A DNA stretch of 64,000 nt. It comes from Psychrobacter namhaensis. GTDB taxonomy: Bacteria; Pseudomonadota; Gammaproteobacteria; Pseudomonadales; Moraxellaceae. The stretch spans positions 1-64,000 of the forward strand of contig NZ_JABASS010000007.1 in NCBI RefSeq assembly GCF_016107545.1, written 5' to 3'. The position numbers and the translations under genes are program-made. This document shows positions 41,883 through 64,000 of the stretch, one piece after another; position 1 is the first letter of the stretch; each line of letters opens with the position of its first letter. The notes below the pieces were generated by a model, which had not been told where the DNA came from, made no database searches, and worked only from the letters and a program-made list of their open reading frames with translations.

Positions 41883-44444
41883 TTAGCTGGCTAACGACTC
41901 AGAATCTGGATGTGGTTCGTGAGTCTCAACAACCGTCAACACAATACGGCTGTCGGCTGACCCTTTATCTGAGCGCTTACCCCTACTTTTATCAAGATTT
42001 ACCGTATCGTCATCTTGTGCATCGGTGGCCTCAGGCGCCAAAGTAAGCTGTACTACCCCGCCGTTGACCAAGTCACCAAACAAAATCATACTTGCCAACG
42101 GCTTTTTGATCTCATCTTGAATCAGACGCTGCATTGGACGTGCACCCATTAGACGATCATAGCCTTTATCAGCTAAGTAGTCGCGTACCTCATCATCAAT
42201 CTCTAGCGTCACTTGCTTGTCATCGAGCTGTACTTGTAGCTCAACCAAGAACTTATCGACCACTGATACTACAACTGAGGTGTCTAGTGGATTGAACTGA
42301 ATGATGGCATCCAAGCGATTACGGAACTCAGGCGTAAAGACACGTTTGAGAGCTTCAGTGTTATCACGACTATGATCTTGCTGCGTAAAGCCCATGGACG
42401 AGCGACTGATGCTATCCGCACCGACATTCGTCGTCATAATAACAATGACTTGCTTAAAGATAGCGACACGACCATTATTGTCAGTCAATGTACCATGATC
42501 CATGACTTGTAATAACAGGTTAAAGACATCAGGGTGCGCTTTTTCGATCTCATCAAGTAACAAAACGCAATGCGGATGTTGATTGATCTTTTCAGTAAGC
42601 AAACCACCTTGATCATAACCGACATAGCCTGGCGGCGCACCAATTAGGCGTGAGGCGGTATGGGCTTCCATATACTCTGACATATCGAAGCGTACCAACT
42701 CGACACCGAGCAAATTGGCTAGCTGACGTGACACTTCTGTTTTACCAACCCCAGTCGGACCAGCAAACATAAATGAACCAATGGGCTTGTCAGGCGCTTT
42801 GAGGCCAGCACGCGACAATTTAATCGCATCTGCTAACGTTTCAATCGCTTCATCTTGCCCAAATACTAAGTGCTTAAGATCACGATCTAAGTGCTCAAGA
42901 ATACTCTTATCATCACTCGATACTGACTTGGGCGGAATACGCGCAAGCTTAGCAATGATCGCTTCAATATCTGCCACATCGATTTTCATCGGTGGCTTTT
43001 TCTTGGCGTTAGACGCTTTAGAGTCATCCGATGATTGGGCGCGGTCATTGGCTTTTGCCGCATCTGCTTCATCTTGCATCTCACTATCAGTAGCGTCATG
43101 AGCCACGTCGCTATCAGCATCCTCATCAATCTGGGCATCAAAGTCTTGCTCTAGATCCGCAATGAAGTTTTCTTCTGCATCAATATCATCGGCATCAGGA
43201 ATAACGCCCAAACGTTTATACGCACCCGCTTCATCAATCACGTCAATGGCCTTATCCGGCAAAAAGCGCTCATGGATGTGTTTAGCGGACAACTGTACAG
43301 CAGTGACCAAGGCCTCATCTGTGTACTCAACGTTATGAAACTCTTCGTAACGTGGTTTAAGACCCCGTAAAATATCAATACTGTCATCGACACTAGGTTC
43401 TTTCACATCGATTTTTTGGAAACGACGCGACAATGCATGATCCTTTTCAAATACCTGACGATACTCGGTAAAGGTCGTTGAACCAATACAGCGTAACTCT
43501 CCATTGGCAAGCGCTGGCTTGATTAGGTTGGACACATCCATATTACTGCTCATGGACGAGCCTGCGCCAATAATCATATGAATCTCATCAATAAACAAGA
43601 TAGCATTAGGCTTTTTCTTTAGGGCATCGAGCAGTGATTTCATACGTTTTTCAAAATCACCACGATATTTAGTGCCCGCAATCAATGAACCAATATCAAG
43701 ACTATAGATGACACAACCGTTCAGTGGCTTCGGCGCTCTATCATTGATAATCAACCATGCCAAACCTTCAGCAATAGAAGTCTTGCCAACACCCGGCTCA
43801 CCTACCAATAAGGGATTGTTTTTACGGCGGCGGCACAGTACTTGCGCGGCGCGCTCAATCTCAGAGGCACGGCCAATCAGTGGGTCTGTTTTGCCCTCAG
43901 CGGCGCGCTGGTTTAAGTTGGTGGCAAACTCTACCAATGGATCTTTACTGGTCTTCTCTGACGCACTACGGCGCTCACCAGTCATAGAAGCACGCGGCTC
44001 AGCTGGCTCGTCTTTATCTTGTCCATGTGACAAGTATTGGGTTAGCTCAAGACGGCTAATACCTTGTTTTTTCAGTAAATAAACCGCGTACGTATCATGC
44101 TCAGAAAACATAGACACTAAAATATCTGAACCTTCGACAAGGCGGCCACCGCCAATAGACTGCACGTGAAAAATAGCACGTTGCAAAATACGATCAAAGC
44201 TTTGGGTCGGCTGCGGCGATTGTTCCGAATCTGCGTCGACGGTTGGCGTGTGTTTACTAATATAAGCCTCAAGCTCAGTGCGCAGCGTTGAAACATTGGC
44301 ATTACACGCAGTTAAGGTATTGGCAGCGTGAGTATTTTCTAACAATGCCAGTAATAGATGTTCAACAGTGAGATACTCATGCGATTTTTGGCGCGCAAGC
44401 GTCATTGCTAAACGTAGAGAAACTTCAAGATGACGACTTAACAT
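41883..44444 (-). CDS. clpA: ATP-dependent Clp protease ATP-binding subunit ClpA
   Basis: An AAA+ unfoldase that feeds ClpP. It has the N-terminal Clp repeats (1-145), NBD1 with GEPGVGKT (215-222) and FIDEIHM, and NBD2 with GPTGVGKT (562-569) and LLDEIEKAH. At 853 residues it is about 95 longer than E. coli ClpA. The main excess is an acidic low-complexity insertion at about 414-485 between NBD1 and the start of the D2 module; the C-terminus is also a longer polar tail. The ATG at 44444 has AGGAAG upstream. Confidence 0.96.
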
Positions 44445-53787: not shown

Positions 53788-55002
53788 CTATGGCACTAGA
53801 TTCACCGTTTGATTGGTTTGCGGTGTCAACTTAAACTCTTTTAAGTCATAGCCTTGTTGTTGGGCAATCTGCCGATATTTAGCATAGGTTTCCTGAGTCA
53901 CATTTGGCGAGCGCGCTAATAACCAGAGATATTCTTTATCAGGTGTCCCTACCAAAGCCGTTTTGTAATCAGCGTCGCGTGCTAGCACCCAATAATCGGC
54001 ACGGCCCACTGGCAACCAGCGTAACCAAGAAGGTAAAAATGTGACTTTTAGTTTGCTTCCTGATTCATCAACTGGCTTAGCTAAACCTTCAGCAACGATG
54101 CTAGAACCGTCTTTATCCATACACTTATTAGTGACTATAATACCTGACCCATCTGTTTTTTTAGTGTAGTTGGCGGTCACATCACCAGCACAATTACGCT
54201 GAAAATACATGGGCAAGCGTCCTATCTCATACCACGTCCCAGTATATTTATTGAGATCAACATGATCCACAGTAGTCGGTGTACTGGCCGACTTATGTAT
54301 GATGGCACTCGGCTCAATAGACAGCGTTTCTGTCGTGGTTTTCTCAGTCGTTGCGTCAGCCGCCATACTATTACTGGTGTTAACCGGCGGCGTTGCAGCG
54401 TAAGCTGAAAATGCTGCTAGCGGTATGATAATAGCTAAGGCAATACCTGTGTGCTTGATCAGTCCATTCATAAATATACGCTCCGGTATGTCTTGATACG
54501 AGGTGTGAGTTGCGGTTGATGAGGAACTGATACTTTGCCCCAGTCCCCCTTTTCGTTCTAGTTTTTTTGGTAACACCTCTGCATGATCCTCTAAAAACCC
54601 TGACAGCATGGGTTCTTTTTCGGCCAGCTTTGTGGTCTGCTTATAGCCATCAGAGTAATAGCCATTAGTAATATCTGTGCTTTCACTAACGCTGGATTTT
54701 GACCCTTTATTTTTTATAGTGGTGCTGTCAAGCATAACAGACTCTTTGTTTTTTAAAGGGCCAGTGTTTGCACTTTTATAGCCAAAATTACTGTCTTGCA
54801 TGGAGGTGTTTTTTGCAGCCTGTTTTAAGTCGTTATCATTCGGAACATCATGGTTATAGCTAGCATCGTTGCTGGCATAGCTTGTCTGTCGCCCATTACT
54901 ACCATTTAAGTAATAACGATCCGACTGGCTATTCTGCTGAGACTGAGAACCAGCTTCCTGTGAATCAGACCATACTGATTGAGGTAACTTATTGGTTTTC
55001 AT
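53788..55002 (-). CDS. Lipocalin (Blc-like) with long N-terminal extension
   Basis: The C-terminal about 160 residues are a bacterial lipocalin: KYTGTWYEIGRLP (the G-x-W motif), a Cys pair (RNCAGD, NKCMDKDG), WVLARDADYKTALVGTP and a C-terminal helix. It is preceded by a signal-peptide-like segment (about 185-205, ending SAYA). The first 177 residues are Ser/Asn/Gln-rich and predicted disordered. An internal ATG at 54471 (residue 178) has GGAG 9 bases upstream and would give a standard 227-residue secreted lipocalin. The ATG at 55002 has only a weak site. I list the full open frame because the extension is stop-free over 531 bp; the mature product is probably the lipocalin alone. Confidence 0.7.
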   Translation of the reverse strand: MKTNKLPQSVWSDSQEAGSQSQQNSQSDRYYLNGSNGRQTSYASNDASYNHDVPNDNDLKQAAKNTSMQDSNFGYKSANTGPLKNKESVMLDSTTIKNKGSKSSVSESTDITNGYYSDGYKQTTKLAEKEPMLSGFLEDHAEVLPKKLERKGGLGQSISSSSTATHTSYQDIPERIFMNGLIKHTGIALAIIIPLAAFSAYAATPPVNTSNSMAADATTEKTTTETLSIEPSAIIHKSASTPTTVDHVDLNKYTGTWYEIGRLPMYFQRNCAGDVTANYTKKTDGSGIIVTNKCMDKDGSSIVAEGLAKPVDESGSKLKVTFLPSWLRWLPVGRADYWVLARDADYKTALVGTPDKEYLWLLARSPNVTQETYAKYRQIAQQQGYDLKEFKLTPQTNQTVNLVP

Positions 55003-55414: not shown

Positions 55415-56506
55415 TTACACTTTAGGTTTTTGTGATGAAAGAAACTGACGAATACCAGCCACACTAACCCCACCGTATGATATTGCTTGATCAATTAGTG
55501 TCGGTGATAATCCGCCCAAACCGATAATCGGTATATCAGACAATTGTGCTAATGCGGACCATGTCTCCCAACCAAGTGAGACAGCATCTGGATGGGTTTG
55601 GGTAGCTAACACAGGTGATAAGAAAGACCCAACTACTGGAGGTAGTTGTTGCTGCAATCGAGCTCTAGCAAGTTTATTAGCTGCTGTAATGCTGTCGGCA
55701 TCATGGCAACTGACGATTAATGGATGAGAGCTTGAGATTCCTTGGTCAGGCATCGCCGCATCCTGAGCATCATTAAACCACTGCATCAATGCCGTATGGG
55801 TTAAATGATGAGCAACAACGTGAGTATCAGTGCCTAAAAACTGGCTATCGGCGTGATGAGGGACAATCACATGGATATCTGGACGCGCCCGCGTCAACTG
55901 CGCAATGAGCTTCTCTGTGCCCGCTTCTTTTGTTCGCACATACACCCATGCTGCGACTGTTAGTTTTTCTTGATGACATTGCAGCCACGCTACCGCTGGG
56001 TCAGAATGGTCATCAAAATGTGACAGTGGATAAGTAATCGTTATATTTTCTGGCAATTTTAGCCATTCAAGCATCGTCTTGTTGGCAGCTGGCAAGTCAT
56101 ATTTCTCGGCCAATAAATCCGCTTTAGTTACCCACGTCAACGCCTGCTTTTCTAGCCCGTATTGGCAGTGCTTGTGCTGCTCATACTGCGGCGCTGTTAG
56201 CTCAATCTTATAAACCTGTAAGCTCACTTGCTTATCGCCATAGTCATGATGTAGGCGGCCAAGTTTAACGATCGTGTTCTCATGAATGGCAAACCCTGTC
56301 TCTTCAGCGACTTCTCGGATGACTGCCTGCTTTGCGTCTTCACTCGCCTCTATTTTACCGCCTACGAACTCATAACGATTACCCTGATGTTGCGCAGCAT
56401 TTCTAAATCCAAGCAAATACTGTTCTTTATAGTGAATAACTGCCACCGCAACGTTGACGACAGTCGCCTTCTCACAGGTGGTTGAATGGTTTGATGGGCT
56501 TGGCAT
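55415..56506 (-). CDS. Nudix hydrolase fused to a thiamine-phosphate-synthase-like domain
   Basis: A 363-residue two-domain protein. The N-terminal domain (about 15-150) is MutT-like with a complete Nudix box (G-x5-E-x7-REVAEETGF, about residues 50-72). The C-terminal domain (about 175-360) resembles ThiE/TenI, with VSCHDADS and IIGLGGLSP. This fusion is known in Pseudomonas and Acinetobacter, where it is annotated as MutT. The Nudix part probably removes 8-oxo-dGTP or a related damaged nucleotide; the role of the second domain is unclear. The ATG at 56506 has AAAGGA upstream. Confidence 0.88.
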   Translation of the reverse strand: MPSPSNHSTTCEKATVVNVAVAVIHYKEQYLLGFRNAAQHQGNRYEFVGGKIEASEDAKQAVIREVAEETGFAIHENTIVKLGRLHHDYGDKQVSLQVYKIELTAPQYEQHKHCQYGLEKQALTWVTKADLLAEKYDLPAANKTMLEWLKLPENITITYPLSHFDDHSDPAVAWLQCHQEKLTVAAWVYVRTKEAGTEKLIAQLTRARPDIHVIVPHHADSQFLGTDTHVVAHHLTHTALMQWFNDAQDAAMPDQGISSSHPLIVSCHDADSITAANKLARARLQQQLPPVVGSFLSPVLATQTHPDAVSLGWETWSALAQLSDIPIIGLGGLSPTLIDQAISYGGVSVAGIRQFLSSQKPKV

Positions 56507-57086: not shown

Positions 57087-60000
57087 TTAGAACTGCCAAC
57101 TATAGACCACATCTACTGCATTTTCTGCCGCTGACGTGGCTTCAATATAGATACGGCGTGTCAGCTGATAGCGAATAGAGAGGCTGTTTTGCGCGTTAAA
57201 AACGCCCACGCCATAGCGGATATATAAGTCAGGACTCACGTAACCTGTGACATTGACATTGGTATCTTCGCTACCCCCTGAGGCATCCACCGTCAAACTC
57301 TGAAAGCCAAAAGCTTGTCCGATTTGATTGGTTAGATTGCGCGTGCCACTCAGACCAAAGCTCAGTCCAGCTGCCGCTAAGTTGTTGGTGACCTGCGACT
57401 TAAAGCCCTGCTCACTAATTTGTGTGGCGCTTCTGTTATTGATTCGCCCTGTAACTAGCGCATTCATGGCTTGCTGTTGAGTCAGGCCTGCATTATTAAA
57501 GACCGTGATATTCGGATTTTCGGTACTGCCTTTGACACGCACGCCTACGGTTTTGCCATCGATCGTTTTAACCGCTTCAATACTCAAGTTAGGCTTCATG
57601 ACATCGCCGTTGAAGCGTACTTGCCCGTAGTTAAGCTCTAGATTCTGACCAAAGGCGTTGATATTGGTGCGACGTGATACCTGTACCACCCCTTTCGCCC
57701 GCATGACACCCGTTCCATTTTGAGTAACATTAATCGCTCCTGCTAACGGAATCACTGCCCCAAAACCACGGAAGTTTATGTTGTCACCCAAGTCGACACC
57801 AATGTCTGCATTGATGGACCAAGGTTTTGAGACCGCCAATACCTCATCAATATTACCAATCAGACGACGATCAAGCACGACTGCATCTTCAGTTTGCGTG
57901 ATAATATCTTCACTGGCTTCTGGTGGACGAATGGTTGCTGAAGGCACACTCACTGCGCCTTTGATACTGACGTAACGGTCAGTTGGACGTATGATGATAT
58001 CGATATCAGGATTAATCTCCGCGACTAATAATGGCGGCTGCGTGATCACCAAGCGCTCACCAACCACGCTAAGCTTGGCCTGTAACTTTTGTTGCCAGTT
58101 CACGGTGCCTTTTAGTGTGCCTGTACCTGTGCCACTGTCAAAGCTTCCATCAATGGTCGCCTGTGTACCGCGAATTTTAGCTTCCGTATTCACATTGGTT
58201 AAATTCACTGGTAGATCAAGCATCGCGATACGACCATCAACGAGCTTCACATTCCCATAGAACTGCGGCTTGTCTAATGTCCCGCCCAGACCACCTGCCA
58301 TGGTGACATTACCTTCTAGCACTCGCATACCTGGGAAGAAAGGCTTAAATATCGCTAGATTAAGCTCATTTAGCACCAACGCACCTGAAATTGGCTTCGG
58401 GGTCTTATAAGGATCAACGACCACTTCAGCATAACCACGAGCACCGCGACCCGTATTGATGTCTGTACGCAGCTTGATACCCTCAGGAACTGACATAGCA
58501 ATGAGTGACACACGCTTATACGGCAAGGTCACAGGCGCGCTATCCCCATCTTGGATCAAACCAATTTTGCCATTATCCGAGTATAACGTCATATTGATGG
58601 TTGGTGGACGTCCCGCTTGCCAGCCCACAATAGCTTTACCATTAATTTTGCCGTGCCAATCGATGTCTTTGGGTAAAAAAACTGAGAACAATGACGTATC
58701 TAGATTTTGCACAGCAATATTGATATCGCCTTTATCTGGTGACGCGATTAAGTTTTCGCGTAAGCATAGTTTGCCAGACTGGTCAGTTGCCTGCCAACAA
58801 TGTGCCGCCAGCTGTACCTTTAAGTCACTATTATTGCCATTTTGGTTATTAGGTAGATTTACAATCAACTGCGCAGGCTGCAGCTGCTTTAAGGTCGCGT
58901 ACTGGGACTCAATACGGCCCTTACCAATCACACCCGACCAAATAAGCTGGTCTCGGTTGAAACCGCCTTTCAGCCTTGCGCTAATATCGAGCTGCTCATT
59001 GGCAACATTAAGATCGACCACATGTGCCTGCTCAGTACCATTAAAGACGGCTTTCACACTTTCAAAACTTTGTCCTGCTGCGTCTAGGCCTTCAGCGGTG
59101 ACGATGAGCTGACTTGGACTGTTTGCCAAATTGACCAGTTTGCCGCGCACACGGCCCTGTCGCAAAATAAAACCTGGCAACGCAATACGCTCACCGACCA
59201 AATCGATATAAATGGTTGGTAATGCCTGTCCTGCTGGTTGCTTTAAGGTCGCGCCGCCCGTTACTTTACCCGCCAGTTTGTCTGAGAGTTGATCCAGACT
59301 GGTGATATTGATTTTGGTTTGTAATTGTCTGGCATTGCCATTGGCTGTTATGTAATTATCACCCCAACGTAGCACGAGATTGTCAGCGTTCAAACTGTCG
59401 ATTAAGGCATTCACTTGCTTATACTGCGCCTGCGCATCTTGCGTTTGGAGACGTTTAAAGTAGCTTGCCAGATCTTTTGGCAAACGCAGTTTCGCCGCCA
59501 AACTGCCTTTCGCGCTAAGCGGTTGACCTTTTAACATACCACTTAGGTTAATCTGCTCAATATTAATAACTTGCTGCGAGTCAGTCCAGCGTCCATCCGT
59601 ACTAATGGTACCAGTGATAAGGCTTGGCGTATCTTTTAGGAAATATCCTACGTTAAAACGATCCATCACGGCATTGATATCCCAAGCAATGCCTTGGCTC
59701 ACATCAACTGTTCCTTTGGCATTAATACTGCCCGCCGCGCCTATATGACTAAAACGGTTGATACGAAACAGCTGAGCGTCACCACTGGCATCAATAATTA
59801 ACTCACCTGCTGGTAGTTGTTCCGCATCTAACACCCCATCGAAGTTGACCGAGAAACGTTGCAGTTTGCCTGCCGTATTGGTACTGTCTTTGGGCGGCGT
59901 TTGCCACTCACCGCTGGTCTGTAGGTCACCTGTGATAATCGCTGAGTTATTGGGTAAAAAATAACCCAAATTAAACGTCTCAAAGCGACCATCGACACGC

Positions 60001-62081
60001 CAACCGATGTTTTTACGCAAATCGATGACACCCTTCGCACTCACTGCGCCAGCCTCACCGTTATAATTGAATTTACGAATACTGATAAGCTTTGGCGTAC
60101 CAGCGGCATCGATCGAAAGCTGTCCTTTTGGCACCTCCGCTGTATCAATCTGACCATCGAAACGCGCGTCAAACACAGACAGCTCACCACCAATCATGTT
60201 GACGCTGGCATCACCGCTACCAGTAATACCGATCGTGCGGCTATCTTGCGTGTCATCAAGTTGCGCCTGCAAATCCGTTTCACTCAAAGTAACAATATGG
60301 CGCTGACCGCTCACCCCATTCTTGGTAATGTTTAACAAACGACCACGAGCGCTGACGCTTCCCGTTAAACGCTCAAGCGGTAAGTCACTGCGATATTGTT
60401 TGGGAAGTAAGCCATCGGTACGAGCGTCAATTTGCCAAGTCAGCGGCCGCTGTTTATTCGCCAGTTGAATCTGCCCAGTTCCCGTTAAGTCCCCGACGAT
60501 TCCTTCGTAATCTAGGCGATTAATATCGATGGTGTCACCGTTTTTACGCACGCGTACATCGTAATTACCTTTGGGTGCCGCGTTAAGCTCATTGATAACC
60601 GCATTGGCATCGACAGATAGCCGTGAACCACGAACGATAACCTCCGCTTGTCCGCGCGGACTGTCAATATCGCCAACATTCGGCACATTTTGGCGGACGA
60701 GGTTTTGCCATCTCGCATCAATGTACCAAGGTGCCACCTGCGTAGATTTCGCTGATGTTTTACCACGGACAATATTGGCATTAACCTGTTCGCCATCACG
60801 TTGACGTAAGGCTGCATCCATCTCTATATTACCAGCGCTGTTTTGCTGCTGATAATGGACAGACAGTCTGCCATTGAGTTTTTGCGGGGCGTACGCTTTA
60901 AAATCCGTGTACTGATCAGGAATAGCGCGGCGAATATCAAAATTGCTACCAGTCGCTCGTACCTTTGCATCAAAGCTATTTTTCCAGTCTAAAATCCCCT
61001 GCAGTATCAAGTTTCCAGCGGGAACCTCTGCCTCTAAACGATCGACGCGTAACTGACTGTTTGCAATGACGCCGCGACCTTGATAATGACCGGATGGAAT
61101 ATCCTTGGCGGTCAGTTCGGTGTTGATACGCAGACGTATCTCAGAGATCACCCCTGCTGCCGTCGCAGTACCGTTTTTTAGATGGATATTTTGACTGTCG
61201 GCATAAGGAATCAAAATATCATCCCATTGCAATTTGGCCTGAAACGGCGAGTCATCACTCAACCCTTGCACGACGAACTCACCGCTGACATCGCTGTCAT
61301 TGTAGCGACTACGCACTTTACCGACTGTGCGTTTTAAGGTTCCTGTTGCGGTGATATTTAGCGGGTCAATGTAGGCTTTTTCTAGCGCACTGACCTTGGC
61401 AATTGCGCTCAAGTCCAGCGGATAATCACCTTGTAAATCAATCTCGCCTTGTAAAGCATTGATTTTGACGATATCAGCATACTGTAAATCGCCACGACCC
61501 ACCGTTACTGTACTACCGACCCACGTCAAATCACGAGCAGCAATATCATGGACAACAATCGCCTCTTTAGTCACTTGCTTATAAATAATTTTTTTAATCT
61601 TAGCCTGGTCAAAACGCAGGTTGACTGGCAATTGCAAGGTTCTATAATCGTACGGCTCACCCGTTGGTGGCTTGGTATTGAGGATTTCAATGGTTTGTAT
61701 GTCAGCATCACGCAAATGTACTTCTTTGGCAAAGATGGCGCGCCAGCCTACTTTGACATAGGCCTTATCAACCAATATTTCAAGATCTTCGGTCGCCTTA
61801 ATATCAATGTCGGTAACCCAAATACCATCACGTAAGTTACCGCGGCCATATTTAAACTCAATACCCGTCTCAGCACTGATTTTCTCTAATATAAATTTGG
61901 TACCGGACTCTGTACCCATCGCATAGAAGAACACGGCAAACATAATCGCCAGTACGATTGTGACCAGTACCAGCAGCTTGAGTAAAAACGACAAAGGATA
62001 CCAACGTCTGACTGCACGAGCGTCGCGCTGTGCTGGATCTTCATCTGGTGCGTTATTAGGCGGGGTATTTTTTGTCAGCAT
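57087..62081 (-). CDS. tamB: Translocation and assembly module protein TamB
   Basis: A large AsmA-like inner-membrane-anchored protein that spans the periplasm and works with TamA in outer-membrane assembly and lipid transport. It has one N-terminal anchor (about 32-55), a very long beta-rich region and the C-terminal DUF490/TamB domain ending in an aromatic residue (VVYSWQF). At about 1664 residues it is some 400 longer than E. coli TamB. At least part of the excess is an internal repeat (about 640-730 and 748-833). I use ATG 62081; a TTG three codons earlier is possible. It lies about 85 bp after tamA. Confidence 0.94.
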   Translation of the reverse strand: MLTKNTPPNNAPDEDPAQRDARAVRRWYPLSFLLKLLVLVTIVLAIMFAVFFYAMGTESGTKFILEKISAETGIEFKYGRGNLRDGIWVTDIDIKATEDLEILVDKAYVKVGWRAIFAKEVHLRDADIQTIEILNTKPPTGEPYDYRTLQLPVNLRFDQAKIKKIIYKQVTKEAIVVHDIAARDLTWVGSTVTVGRGDLQYADIVKINALQGEIDLQGDYPLDLSAIAKVSALEKAYIDPLNITATGTLKRTVGKVRSRYNDSDVSGEFVVQGLSDDSPFQAKLQWDDILIPYADSQNIHLKNGTATAAGVISEIRLRINTELTAKDIPSGHYQGRGVIANSQLRVDRLEAEVPAGNLILQGILDWKNSFDAKVRATGSNFDIRRAIPDQYTDFKAYAPQKLNGRLSVHYQQQNSAGNIEMDAALRQRDGEQVNANIVRGKTSAKSTQVAPWYIDARWQNLVRQNVPNVGDIDSPRGQAEVIVRGSRLSVDANAVINELNAAPKGNYDVRVRKNGDTIDINRLDYEGIVGDLTGTGQIQLANKQRPLTWQIDARTDGLLPKQYRSDLPLERLTGSVSARGRLLNITKNGVSGQRHIVTLSETDLQAQLDDTQDSRTIGITGSGDASVNMIGGELSVFDARFDGQIDTAEVPKGQLSIDAAGTPKLISIRKFNYNGEAGAVSAKGVIDLRKNIGWRVDGRFETFNLGYFLPNNSAIITGDLQTSGEWQTPPKDSTNTAGKLQRFSVNFDGVLDAEQLPAGELIIDASGDAQLFRINRFSHIGAAGSINAKGTVDVSQGIAWDINAVMDRFNVGYFLKDTPSLITGTISTDGRWTDSQQVINIEQINLSGMLKGQPLSAKGSLAAKLRLPKDLASYFKRLQTQDAQAQYKQVNALIDSLNADNLVLRWGDNYITANGNARQLQTKINITSLDQLSDKLAGKVTGGATLKQPAGQALPTIYIDLVGERIALPGFILRQGRVRGKLVNLANSPSQLIVTAEGLDAAGQSFESVKAVFNGTEQAHVVDLNVANEQLDISARLKGGFNRDQLIWSGVIGKGRIESQYATLKQLQPAQLIVNLPNNQNGNNSDLKVQLAAHCWQATDQSGKLCLRENLIASPDKGDINIAVQNLDTSLFSVFLPKDIDWHGKINGKAIVGWQAGRPPTINMTLYSDNGKIGLIQDGDSAPVTLPYKRVSLIAMSVPEGIKLRTDINTGRGARGYAEVVVDPYKTPKPISGALVLNELNLAIFKPFFPGMRVLEGNVTMAGGLGGTLDKPQFYGNVKLVDGRIAMLDLPVNLTNVNTEAKIRGTQATIDGSFDSGTGTGTLKGTVNWQQKLQAKLSVVGERLVITQPPLLVAEINPDIDIIIRPTDRYVSIKGAVSVPSATIRPPEASEDIITQTEDAVVLDRRLIGNIDEVLAVSKPWSINADIGVDLGDNINFRGFGAVIPLAGAINVTQNGTGVMRAKGVVQVSRRTNINAFGQNLELNYGQVRFNGDVMKPNLSIEAVKTIDGKTVGVRVKGSTENPNITVFNNAGLTQQQAMNALVTGRINNRSATQISEQGFKSQVTNNLAAAGLSFGLSGTRNLTNQIGQAFGFQSLTVDASGGSEDTNVNVTGYVSPDLYIRYGVGVFNAQNSLSIRYQLTRRIYIEATSAAENAVDVVYSWQF

Positions 62082-62166
62082 GACACTCAACTACGTTAAA
62101 GAATGATGACCAGCAATCGGCACGATAGATAATAAACAAAACAAACTACACGACTGAATTAAAGAA

Positions 62167-64000
62167 CTACAAAGGCGAACCTATAAAGAAATGTAGTCTA
62201 ACGGGAATACTGTCTTCTGTCACACCAGCGGCCACATCGACTCGCACGACACCGACAGGCGATGCCCAGCGAATACCAACGCCAACGCCAACTTTTGTTT
62301 CAGTTTCGAAATCTTTGTCGTAAGCATTGCCCACATCAGTGAAGAATGCCCCGCGAAAGCCCGGTCTAAATTCGTAGTTGTACTCGGCACTACCAACGGC
62401 GAGGATCTGCCCACCAGTGAGATACCCTTTATCTAGTGGTGATAAGCTTTCATAGTCATAACCGCGGATACTTTGGTCCCCGCCTGCAAAGAAACGCAAC
62501 TTGTAAGGCACGTCATAAAAATCATCGGCCCAAATGTAACCTGCATTCACACTGCCCAATACTTGATGTTTTTTGTCATCACCAAAGCTATAAATACCAC
62601 TCACACCCGCGCGAACGATTGCCAAGTCGGTATCGCTAAGAGCCTTATCGGCACCGGCTTCAACAGCATAGTACTGACGTATGCCGCGAGTGGGGTTAGT
62701 CGCACTATCTACATCGGTTTTATTTATACCGTAACCAAACAGCAGCGCTTGCTGCTTGGGCTTGGAGGAGGTAAAGCGTATAGGCAAATCATCTAACTCC
62801 GTCTCATCGACACCCGTTTCCAGCTCATCCAAACGATAACGTACAGAGTAGCTGCGATTCCAACCACTTTCACGGCGTATATTACGTGCCAAGGCTGCTT
62901 TTAAGGTACTGGTAGACAAATCAAAGTTGCCTTCGCCTTGATCGATCACTTCTTCTTCATAGGTCAGACGCCCTTCTAATGTATCATTAAGCGGATGCTT
63001 CCAAGGACGACTGGCGTAGACGGTGACGTTTTTAGTAATTCTTGAGACTTCGGTTTCTGCCCCTGCTTGATAACCTTGACGATTGAGCAGATTATAATCT
63101 ATCTTCGCAGTGGCTCGTACACCCGTATCTGTACCATAACCAAGACCAACTTGGGCATCACGTGGCTTACTGGACGATACAAAGACATACAGCGGTACTT
63201 TTTTACTTTCTGCTACTTCTTGCGGCGTTTTACGTCCTGCCAGCGTTGGTGGTACAAAGTTTTCATCAGCAAGGATACTTTCTTCGTCGGGGAATATTTT
63301 TTGAGCGATGTTACTGATTGAGTCGCTAATTTTGCCTAAAAGGTTATCCGCCTCTTGGTCTTTTTCATCCAATACCCGATCATTTGGCAAGTTGCTTAAG
63401 CGTTCTGCCTTTTGTCTAATGGCTTGCAGTTTATCAAGCGTTTCTTCATCAGCTTCAAACTCGATAGCGGCAATATCGGCGGCATTGACTGTTTCTGTGT
63501 TATTGGTATCCAGACTGCTTTCACCTTCTGCGTTAACCTCGTCATTATTGGTATTGCCACTCGCACCGTCTTGTCTGCTGCTCAGACGATCATCGATTGC
63601 TGCTAAGCTTTCGTCCTCGTTACTGCCAGTCGTGTCTGTCACGCCAGCGTTATTGATATCATCATCTAGCTCGTTGTTGCTCATGGCAGGGGCGTTATCA
63701 AAATCCAATGTACTGGCTTCACTGCGCTCATCTGGCGGTAATATCGACTCAACGTTGACCGTATTAAAGTAACGCGTCGCGGACAAATCATTGCTAAACT
63801 TGGTAACAGCGGGGCGATAAAAAGGATCGCCTGGCTCAAAGTCAAATAACTGCTGTAGTAGCGATAGTTCAACGGGCAGCTTATCAGGGTCTTGAGTCAG
63901 TGTGTTTGTTTCTTCGTCATAAGTAAAGAAGACAACCTCATCAAATTCATAGCGATCGCCGGTGTTATAGACCAAAGAGACATCCGCTGTGTTGTCTGGC
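62167..64000 (-). CDS. tamA: TamA, Omp85-family outer-membrane assembly factor (N-terminus beyond the window)
   Basis: The C-terminal part of an Omp85 protein, open to the right edge, so at least one further POTRA domain lies outside the window. The visible part begins in a POTRA domain (SLVYNTGDRYEF), continues through the last POTRA, then the 16-strand beta barrel from about nucleotide 63200 leftward, with GLGYGTDTGVR, the lid-loop motif GGDQSIRGYDYESLSP and a terminal aromatic-containing strand. A hydrophilic, acidic insertion of about 177 residues (63205-63735) interrupts the final POTRA domain. It is followed by tamB. Confidence 0.92.
   Translation of the reverse strand, partial: PDNTADVSLVYNTGDRYEFDEVVFFTYDEETNTLTQDPDKLPVELSLLQQLFDFEPGDPFYRPAVTKFSNDLSATRYFNTVNVESILPPDERSEASTLDFDNAPAMSNNELDDDINNAGVTDTTGSNEDESLAAIDDRLSSRQDGASGNTNNDEVNAEGESSLDTNNTETVNAADIAAIEFEADEETLDKLQAIRQKAERLSNLPNDRVLDEKDQEADNLLGKISDSISNIAQKIFPDEESILADENFVPPTLAGRKTPQEVAESKKVPLYVFVSSSKPRDAQVGLGYGTDTGVRATAKIDYNLLNRQGYQAGAETEVSRITKNVTVYASRPWKHPLNDTLEGRLTYEEEVIDQGEGNFDLSTSTLKAALARNIRRESGWNRSYSVRYRLDELETGVDETELDDLPIRFTSSKPKQQALLFGYGINKTDVDSATNPTRGIRQYYAVEAGADKALSDTDLAIVRAGVSGIYSFGDDKKHQVLGSVNAGYIWADDFYDVPYKLRFFAGGDQSIRGYDYESLSPLDKGYLTGGQILAVGSAEYNYEFRPGFRGAFFTDVGNAYDKDFETETKVGVGVGIRWASPVGVVRVDVAAGVTEDSIPVRLHFFIGSPL

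Follow-up and report, generated by a model that had tools for sequence, protein, structure and literature searches.

The tamA locus and the extent of the insertion

The window, that is the whole stretch of 64,000 nucleotides of Psychrobacter namhaensis DNA that was analysed, ends within a tamA gene. The full gene encodes a protein of 1136 residues on the minus strand (G000:C43:62170-65577), and tamB lies 76 bases downstream of it (TamB match with an E-value of 5.2e-42), the two genes adjoining each other as they do in E. coli. The features of this region are:

57087..62090, minus strand: tamB, 1667 residues
62167..64000, minus strand: tamA, C-terminal 610 residues (the rest of the gene runs past the window to contig position 65577)
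62170..63207, minus strand: last strand of POTRA3 and barrel, TamA residues 791-1136
63208..63738, minus strand: insertion, TamA residues 614-790
63739..63774, minus strand: POTRA3 strand RYFNTVNVESIL, TamA residues 602-613

A gene for an MFS transporter (Pfam MFS_1; L001:8890-10365), which presumably resembles the lysophospholipid transporter LplT, is divergently transcribed beside tamAB. Elsewhere the window encodes a protein of 404 residues (53788-55002), in which residues 248-395 form a lipocalin-like domain at the C-terminal end and the N-terminal half has no family assignment, and a NUDIX domain fused with a partial thiamine-phosphate synthase-like domain (55415-56506).

The protein is a TamA carrying a new element. 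Like the TamA proteins of E. coli and P. aeruginosa (PDB 4c00 and 8us1), it has three POTRAs and an Omp85 barrel, and it shares the FAGGDxSxRGYxY signature with the solved TamA chains. Pfam Omp85 matches residues 834-1133 with an E-value of 1.5e-36, and barrel strands are present in the AlphaFold model of the window fragment. Two stretches of the protein score above the cut-off of the POTRA family, and POTRA_TamA_1 scores 17.7 bits, which is under its 26-bit cut-off; the three POTRAs are backed by the alignment with solved POTRAs (residues 390-612) and by matching secondary structure in the model of the Psychrobacter aquaticus homologue. Family and fold matches to BamA and its POTRAs were weaker. 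The protein was not assigned to the NCBIfam equivalog for TamA, NF047950 (360.2 bits, with more than 625 required), but just 3 genomes out of 369 sampled from the class exceed its cut-off, so that we regard the model as a tight naming rule.

In phmmer comparisons with solved TamA chains, the two alignments listed both consist of two matched pieces with an unmatched stretch between them. The first piece covers the POTRAs (residues 390-609 or 413-612), and the second covers the last strand of POTRA3 together with the barrel (residues 788-1133 or 791-1134). The insertion thus amounts to 177 residues between the last two strands of POTRA3, in the beta2-beta3 hairpin. The POTRA3 domains of E. coli and P. 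aeruginosa TamA lack it, and in the E. coli protein (577 residues, as compared to 1136 here) a short turn, VVVAPQFDKARETKVLPL, joins the strands at this site. Outside the clade of genera that carry an insert, the site measured 4-6 residues in all 17 measured rows, of which 13 belong to the same family and 4 to the same order. These results confirm the original prediction of extra residues within the last POTRA of TamA, the interval of which was off by 3 bases. The accompanying statement that other TamA proteins have a short hairpin at this position is correct for E. coli and the sister genera, but it fails in eight genera of this family, where all 71 measured rows have 47-208 residues. The insertion is therefore not special to this Psychrobacter species.

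The insertion is of unusual composition. Asp, Glu, Asn, Ser and Thr together make up a fraction of 0.50, as compared to a mean of 0.29 in window stretches of equal length that were taken every 5 residues from 36 other ORFs of the window, and this fraction was equalled by none of the 1980 control stretches. Likewise, none of the 1980 had a net charge as low as that of the insertion (−31), whereas its content of Asp and Glu alone (0.25) was equalled by 14. An Asp-rich tract (about residues 415-480) was also observed in a ClpA-type ATPase of the window (41883-44444), which has AAA, AAA_lid_9, ClpB_D2-small and Clp_N domains.

A variable linker and a conserved module

Two halves of the insertion can be distinguished:

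63487..63738, minus strand: variable acidic linker, residues 614-697, 62% Asp, Glu, Asn, Ser and Thr
63208..63486, minus strand: conserved module, residues 698-790 (about 93 residues)

In 48 rows from the window's genus, agreement with the window residue averaged 0.11-0.57 in the 20-residue blocks between residues 621 and 700, and it returned to 0.80-0.90, the level of the POTRAs and the barrel, in the blocks of residues 701-800. The same division was evident from dN/dS values, which were calculated for the window's tamA plus 58 named loci of Psychrobacter using only pairs with a dS of 0.2-1.5. The median dN/dS was 0.364 for the linker (residues 616-696), 0.204 for the N-terminal extension of TamA, 0.071 for the module (residues 698-790), 0.056 for the barrel and 0.054 for the POTRAs; these values are to be taken as ranks, dS being near saturation (about 1.1-1.3) and the pairs used differing by region (169, 348, 356, 551 and 780 of 1711). 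The module is thus about as constrained as the POTRAs and the barrel. In an alignment of 17 rows from three genera, the module positions K28, L32, P36, L41, L52, S60 and V93 are invariant, and the net charge of the module is −12. The description of the insertion as low-complexity sequence accordingly applies to its first 84 or so residues, the remainder being the conserved module. Neither Pfam (best E-value 0.0016, in one of the 17 rows) nor a profile search of the PDB (best E-value 0.31) gave a convincing match to the module.

AlphaFold modelling of the window fragment together with 26 rows gave a mean pLDDT of 64.1. Nearly all of the insertion was below 50, except for nine residues of the first of two predicted helices and the last dozen or so residues, and the linker had a pLDDT of about 26-36 over most of its length. 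The two helices are:

63394..63447, minus strand: helix 1, residues 711-728 (fragment residues 185-202), predicted by AlphaFold with low confidence
63295..63342, minus strand: helix 2, residues 746-761 (fragment residues 220-235), amphipathic, predicted by AlphaFold with low confidence

The model of the P. aquaticus homologue, built with 48 rows (mean pLDDT 59.8), has equivalent helices at residues 715-732 and 750-765 with block means of 43-56, and its best fold matches were the TamA proteins of P. aeruginosa and E. coli. For helix 2 of the window, the hydrophobic moment was 0.60 at a mean hydrophobicity of 0.23, and 0.1% of shuffled sequences scored as high; the corresponding values were 0.56 and 0.31 in a Moraxella row (0.2% of shuffles) and 0.44 and 0.14 in a row of genus g20 (3.3%). 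Helix 1 was not unusually amphipathic in the same three rows, where 14%, 15% and 5% of shuffles scored as high.

The possibility that the inserted segment is a normal POTRA, with its beta-alpha-alpha-beta-beta order, was rejected. The insertion had no match to a POTRA family in Pfam, and AlphaFold gave no POTRA fold for it but a linker and two low-confidence helices without strands, with block means of 26-56 up to the last residues. The original prediction of an insertion, as opposed to a further POTRA, is in this respect borne out by the family search and the AlphaFold models of TamA.

Distribution, origin and accompanying changes

TamA was matched in 297 of 299 genomes of the family and the module profile in 132 of the 299, with one match in each. 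The module was present in all 105 genomes from the window's own genus (g1), in 6 of 6 of g20 and in 21 of 22 of g23, and the one g23 genome without a match (G087) reads N throughout the 12 kb inspected. The open frames that hold the matches are 412-1284 residues long, consistent with TamA or fragments of it. Among named loci, searched with DNA patterns derived from Psychrobacter and Moraxella, the best 80 of 85 with the module comprised 69 from Psychrobacter and 11 from Moraxella. A search of 369 genomes of the class returned only the window's own genome and a single marginal match (E-value 9.2e-4) to what we take to be a phosphatase-type signalling protein; this match was attributed to chance. 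TamA itself was matched in 256 of these 369 genomes, and no such insert was seen by eye among the matches listed, the full-length rows of which were about 1.64-1.79 kb.

Insert lengths were 149-208 residues in the window's genus (48 rows, from a genus with 105 genomes), 129-181 in g20 (4 rows), 126-130 in g23 (5 rows), 84-133 in g28, which is probably Acinetobacter (7 rows), and 47-100 in g21, g22, g24 and g29 (7 rows). These counts leave out L054, which is from the same genome as L024, and no length was obtained for L026 (a fragment), L029 (no POTRA match) or L093 (no barrel); in one genome (G014) the tamA gene is split. The inserts of g21, g22, g24, g28 and g29 (47-133 residues, 14 rows) occupy the same site as that of the window but differ from it in that none matches the module model, and when the profile of the module was compared with seven inserts of g28 and one of g22, no relation was found (probability 0.2%). 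As no relationship is detectable, either the site took up different contents or the sequences have diverged beyond recognition.

In a TamA tree built without the insert, its presence requires a single change, and both the insert clade and the module-bearing clade of g1, g20 and g23 have a support of 100; the tree contains 50 rows (33 with and 17 without insert) and was made by a quick method with long outgroup branches. A single origin in this family thus suffices for the insert, and possession of the module sets the Psychrobacter/Moraxella branch apart.

The insert clade differs from its relatives in several further respects. Its TamB frames are 1501-1773 residues long (25 frames), as compared to 962-1363 in the sister genera (13 frames); one sister frame (L060) is cut by the contig, and the fetched stretches of L069 and L070 contain none. 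Genera g22, g24, g28 and g29 have a long TamB like the window's genus, and for g21 there was none in the fetched stretch. The gain in length falls into a defined part of the protein:

59817..60902, minus strand: TamB residues 397-758, lengthened in the insert clade (equivalent to E. coli residues 300-400)

In the rows aligned with E. coli, this region comprises 244-390 residues in 11 insert-clade rows, 40-99 in 8 sister rows and 100 in E. coli itself. By comparing the cut-out segment, we found in the window's TamB a unit of about 106 residues that starts at residue 644 and again at 750, the two copies being 37-41% identical and the second extending past residue 758. In one g20 genome the TamB match (L069; G091:C3:765539-766588) is located about 330 kb from tamA (C3:433977-436535).

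The N-terminus of TamA is also longer in the insert clade, with 83-490 residues before POTRA1 versus −81 to 61 in the sister and outgroup rows; these lengths depend on the choice of start, a negative value denotes an internal first Met, and L084 was excluded. In the window's gene (L001:5168-8578), residues about 62-390 form an acidic extension of about 330 residues with conserved islands, which E. coli TamA lacks. The P. aquaticus model has a helical hairpin in this extension, at residues 112-147 (block means 62-80).

The complement of AsmA-type proteins follows the same division. YhdP (PF13116) was found in 29 of the 299 family genomes, all of them among the 30 genomes of g15-g19 and g25-g27, and in 0 of the 268 remaining genomes (269 less G087, which reads N); the match was weak in G055 and fragmentary in G090 and G107. 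The one genome of the 30 without YhdP is G050 of g27, whose TamA is cut, so that its insert status is unreadable. Insert status rests on representatives measured in each genus. AsmA (PF05170) was found in 12 of 12 sister genomes and, among 20 readable genomes of the insert clade, in 1 (G047, a weak match), and G050 had none. YdbH (PF11739) was found in 1 of the 12 sister genomes and in none of the 20, while TamB was present in all 12 and all 20 and also in G090 and G050. Because all these differences between the clades arose along a single long branch, their association has to be regarded as a single event, and for the same reason a causal link between them and the insert is something that we infer.

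The available text of a study on E. coli states that any one of YhdP, TamB and YdbH suffices, that loss of all three is lethal, and that TamA becomes essential once YhdP and YdbH are absent (PMC8593681); the redundancy of the three proteins is also described in the accessible part of PMC8912898. In A. baumannii, GspN is presented as another beta-taco protein in the available text of PMC12802150, and in the parts available of two papers on the A. baumannii envelope (PMC10936186 and PMC12846801) the work on YhdP, TamB and YdbH appears in the references only.

A putative partner-binding element of TamAB

According to the available text of a 2026 cryo-EM paper on E. coli TamAB (PMC12800296), POTRA1 and POTRA2 engage TamB as well as its coupling loop, and the POTRA3 residues N237, S238, N227 and V241, with F159, contact TamB residues within 1153-1167. 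An older paper reports, in the part available, that TamB binding needs POTRA1 (PMC4525385). Residues N605, T606 and V609 of the window's TamA align with E. coli N237, S238 and V241, and the insertion starts five residues after V609. The proposal that TamB docks near the insertion is therefore supported as far as POTRA3 is concerned, POTRA3 being only one of three TamB interfaces. The related proposal of a partner-binding appendage fits with the conservation of the module, with its low-confidence AlphaFold prediction and with the nearby TamB contact, which makes the module a candidate for this role.

The TamB segment that docks to POTRA3 (TamB residues 1137-1184) ranked 7 of 1212 windows for residues specific to the insert clade; for those insert-bearing genera that lack the module, its rank was 14 of 1212. 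Two control splits that did not involve the insert gave ranks of 51 and 17 of 1212, and the ranks were 1096 for a split by the module and 718 for a split inside the insert clade. Since the segment also ranks high in the control splits and is thus clade-specific there too, no specific coupling with TamB is supported, and the case for a specific co-change of the docking segment with the insert is weakened. The low rank at the appearance of the module is mild evidence against a TamB site that was re-made for it.

The explanation that we tentatively prefer, while giving it somewhat less than an even chance, is that the insertion is a tethered element that folds on binding a putative partner, belonging to a TamAB that took over as the main lipid bridge. 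The acidic linker would serve as a flexible tether, and the module would fold on gripping its partner on the periplasmic side of the outer membrane, next to the contact between TamB and POTRA3. The likeliest partner of the module would be the C-terminal end of TamB or the lipids leaving TamB. Having lost YhdP and, with rare exceptions, AsmA, the lineage may lean on TamAB as its AsmA-type lipid bridge, and the insertion would then help to hold or steer the end of TamB during lipid hand-over. The placement in POTRA3, the constraint on the module, its presence in three genera, its two low-confidence helices with the amphipathic character of helix 2, the single origin of the insert, the enlarged TamB, the absence of YhdP from the insert clade (0 of 268 versus 29 of 30) and the redundancy of YhdP, TamB and YdbH in E. 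coli all favour this explanation, while the outcome of the coupling test, the confinement of the accompanying changes to one branch, the acidic tract of the ClpA-like protein in the window and the distant TamB match of G091, by which the pair is not always adjacent, speak against it.

Other explanations put the same module to different uses. It may be a membrane anchor, with helix 2 lying in the inner leaflet of the outer membrane by the barrel gate, where it would thin or order the leaflet, the linker acting as a spacer and TamB being left untouched. The amphipathic character of helix 2 in the window, Moraxella and g20 rows is consistent with such an anchor, but both helices are short and of low confidence, helix 1 is not specially amphipathic, and an overall net charge of −12 is unusual for a leaflet-binding segment, so that we consider it unlikely. 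The module might instead bind another envelope partner, for instance peptidoglycan, a chaperone, a lipoprotein or an inner-membrane protein, and tether TamA there. A conserved segment on a flexible periplasmic tether would suit this role, as would the fact that the docking segment of TamB changed little when the module arose, but there is no candidate partner and the module has no known binding fold (best E-values of 0.0016 in Pfam and 0.31 in the PDB), and we rate this explanation as quite unlikely.

Two simpler accounts assign less to the module. That acidic tracts merely grow in loops in this genus and that the insertion is functionless agrees with the spread of insert lengths among the 48 rows of the genus, with the fast evolution of the linker and with the acidic tract of the ClpA-like protein. 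Such drift is contradicted for the module by its conservation, since it is about as constrained as folded domains and has been kept in three genera; for the insertion as a whole it is very unlikely, and it may hold for the linker alone. Binding of divalent cations, which the original prediction had offered as another function, finds some basis in the net charge of −31 and in Ca-loop-like words (D-x-[DN]-x-[DNG]-G), which occur in 18 inserts out of 72, L054 being counted among the 72. These words are absent from the other 54, the insertion of the window among them, so that an EF-hand-like loop of the DxDxDG type is not conserved; a cation-binding loop in the window's insertion was thus rejected, and we consider this function highly improbable.

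A broader interpretation, which goes further than the tethered element that we prefer and which we hold to be rather doubtful, is that in Acinetobacter, Moraxella and Psychrobacter the AsmA clan shrank to TamB alone and that TamAB was rebuilt as the single essential phospholipid bridge between the inner and the outer membrane. TamB would then have been extended by additional beta-taco units, and TamA would have acquired an N-terminal arm and, in POTRA3, a tethered module that captures the end of TamB or its lipids so as to deliver them to the outer membrane. The searches on which this interpretation draws covered YhdP, AsmA, YdbH and TamB.

We found no earlier report of the insert among the open-licence papers listed for TamA, TamB, POTRA, Omp85 and AsmA-like proteins, and the main text of a 2015 paper on the evolution of the TAM (PMC4494059) names none of the three genera. 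In E. coli, the route by which phospholipids reach the outer membrane and the role of TamAB in it are blurred by three redundant proteins. A clade with an enlarged TamAB in which YhdP was not found represents a natural system for testing lipid bridging by TamAB, and the module is a small piece that lends itself to deletion, cross-linking or use as a bait. Moraxella, and probably Acinetobacter too, belong to this lineage, and, if the proposed explanation is true, TamAB would be a non-redundant envelope factor in these bacteria.
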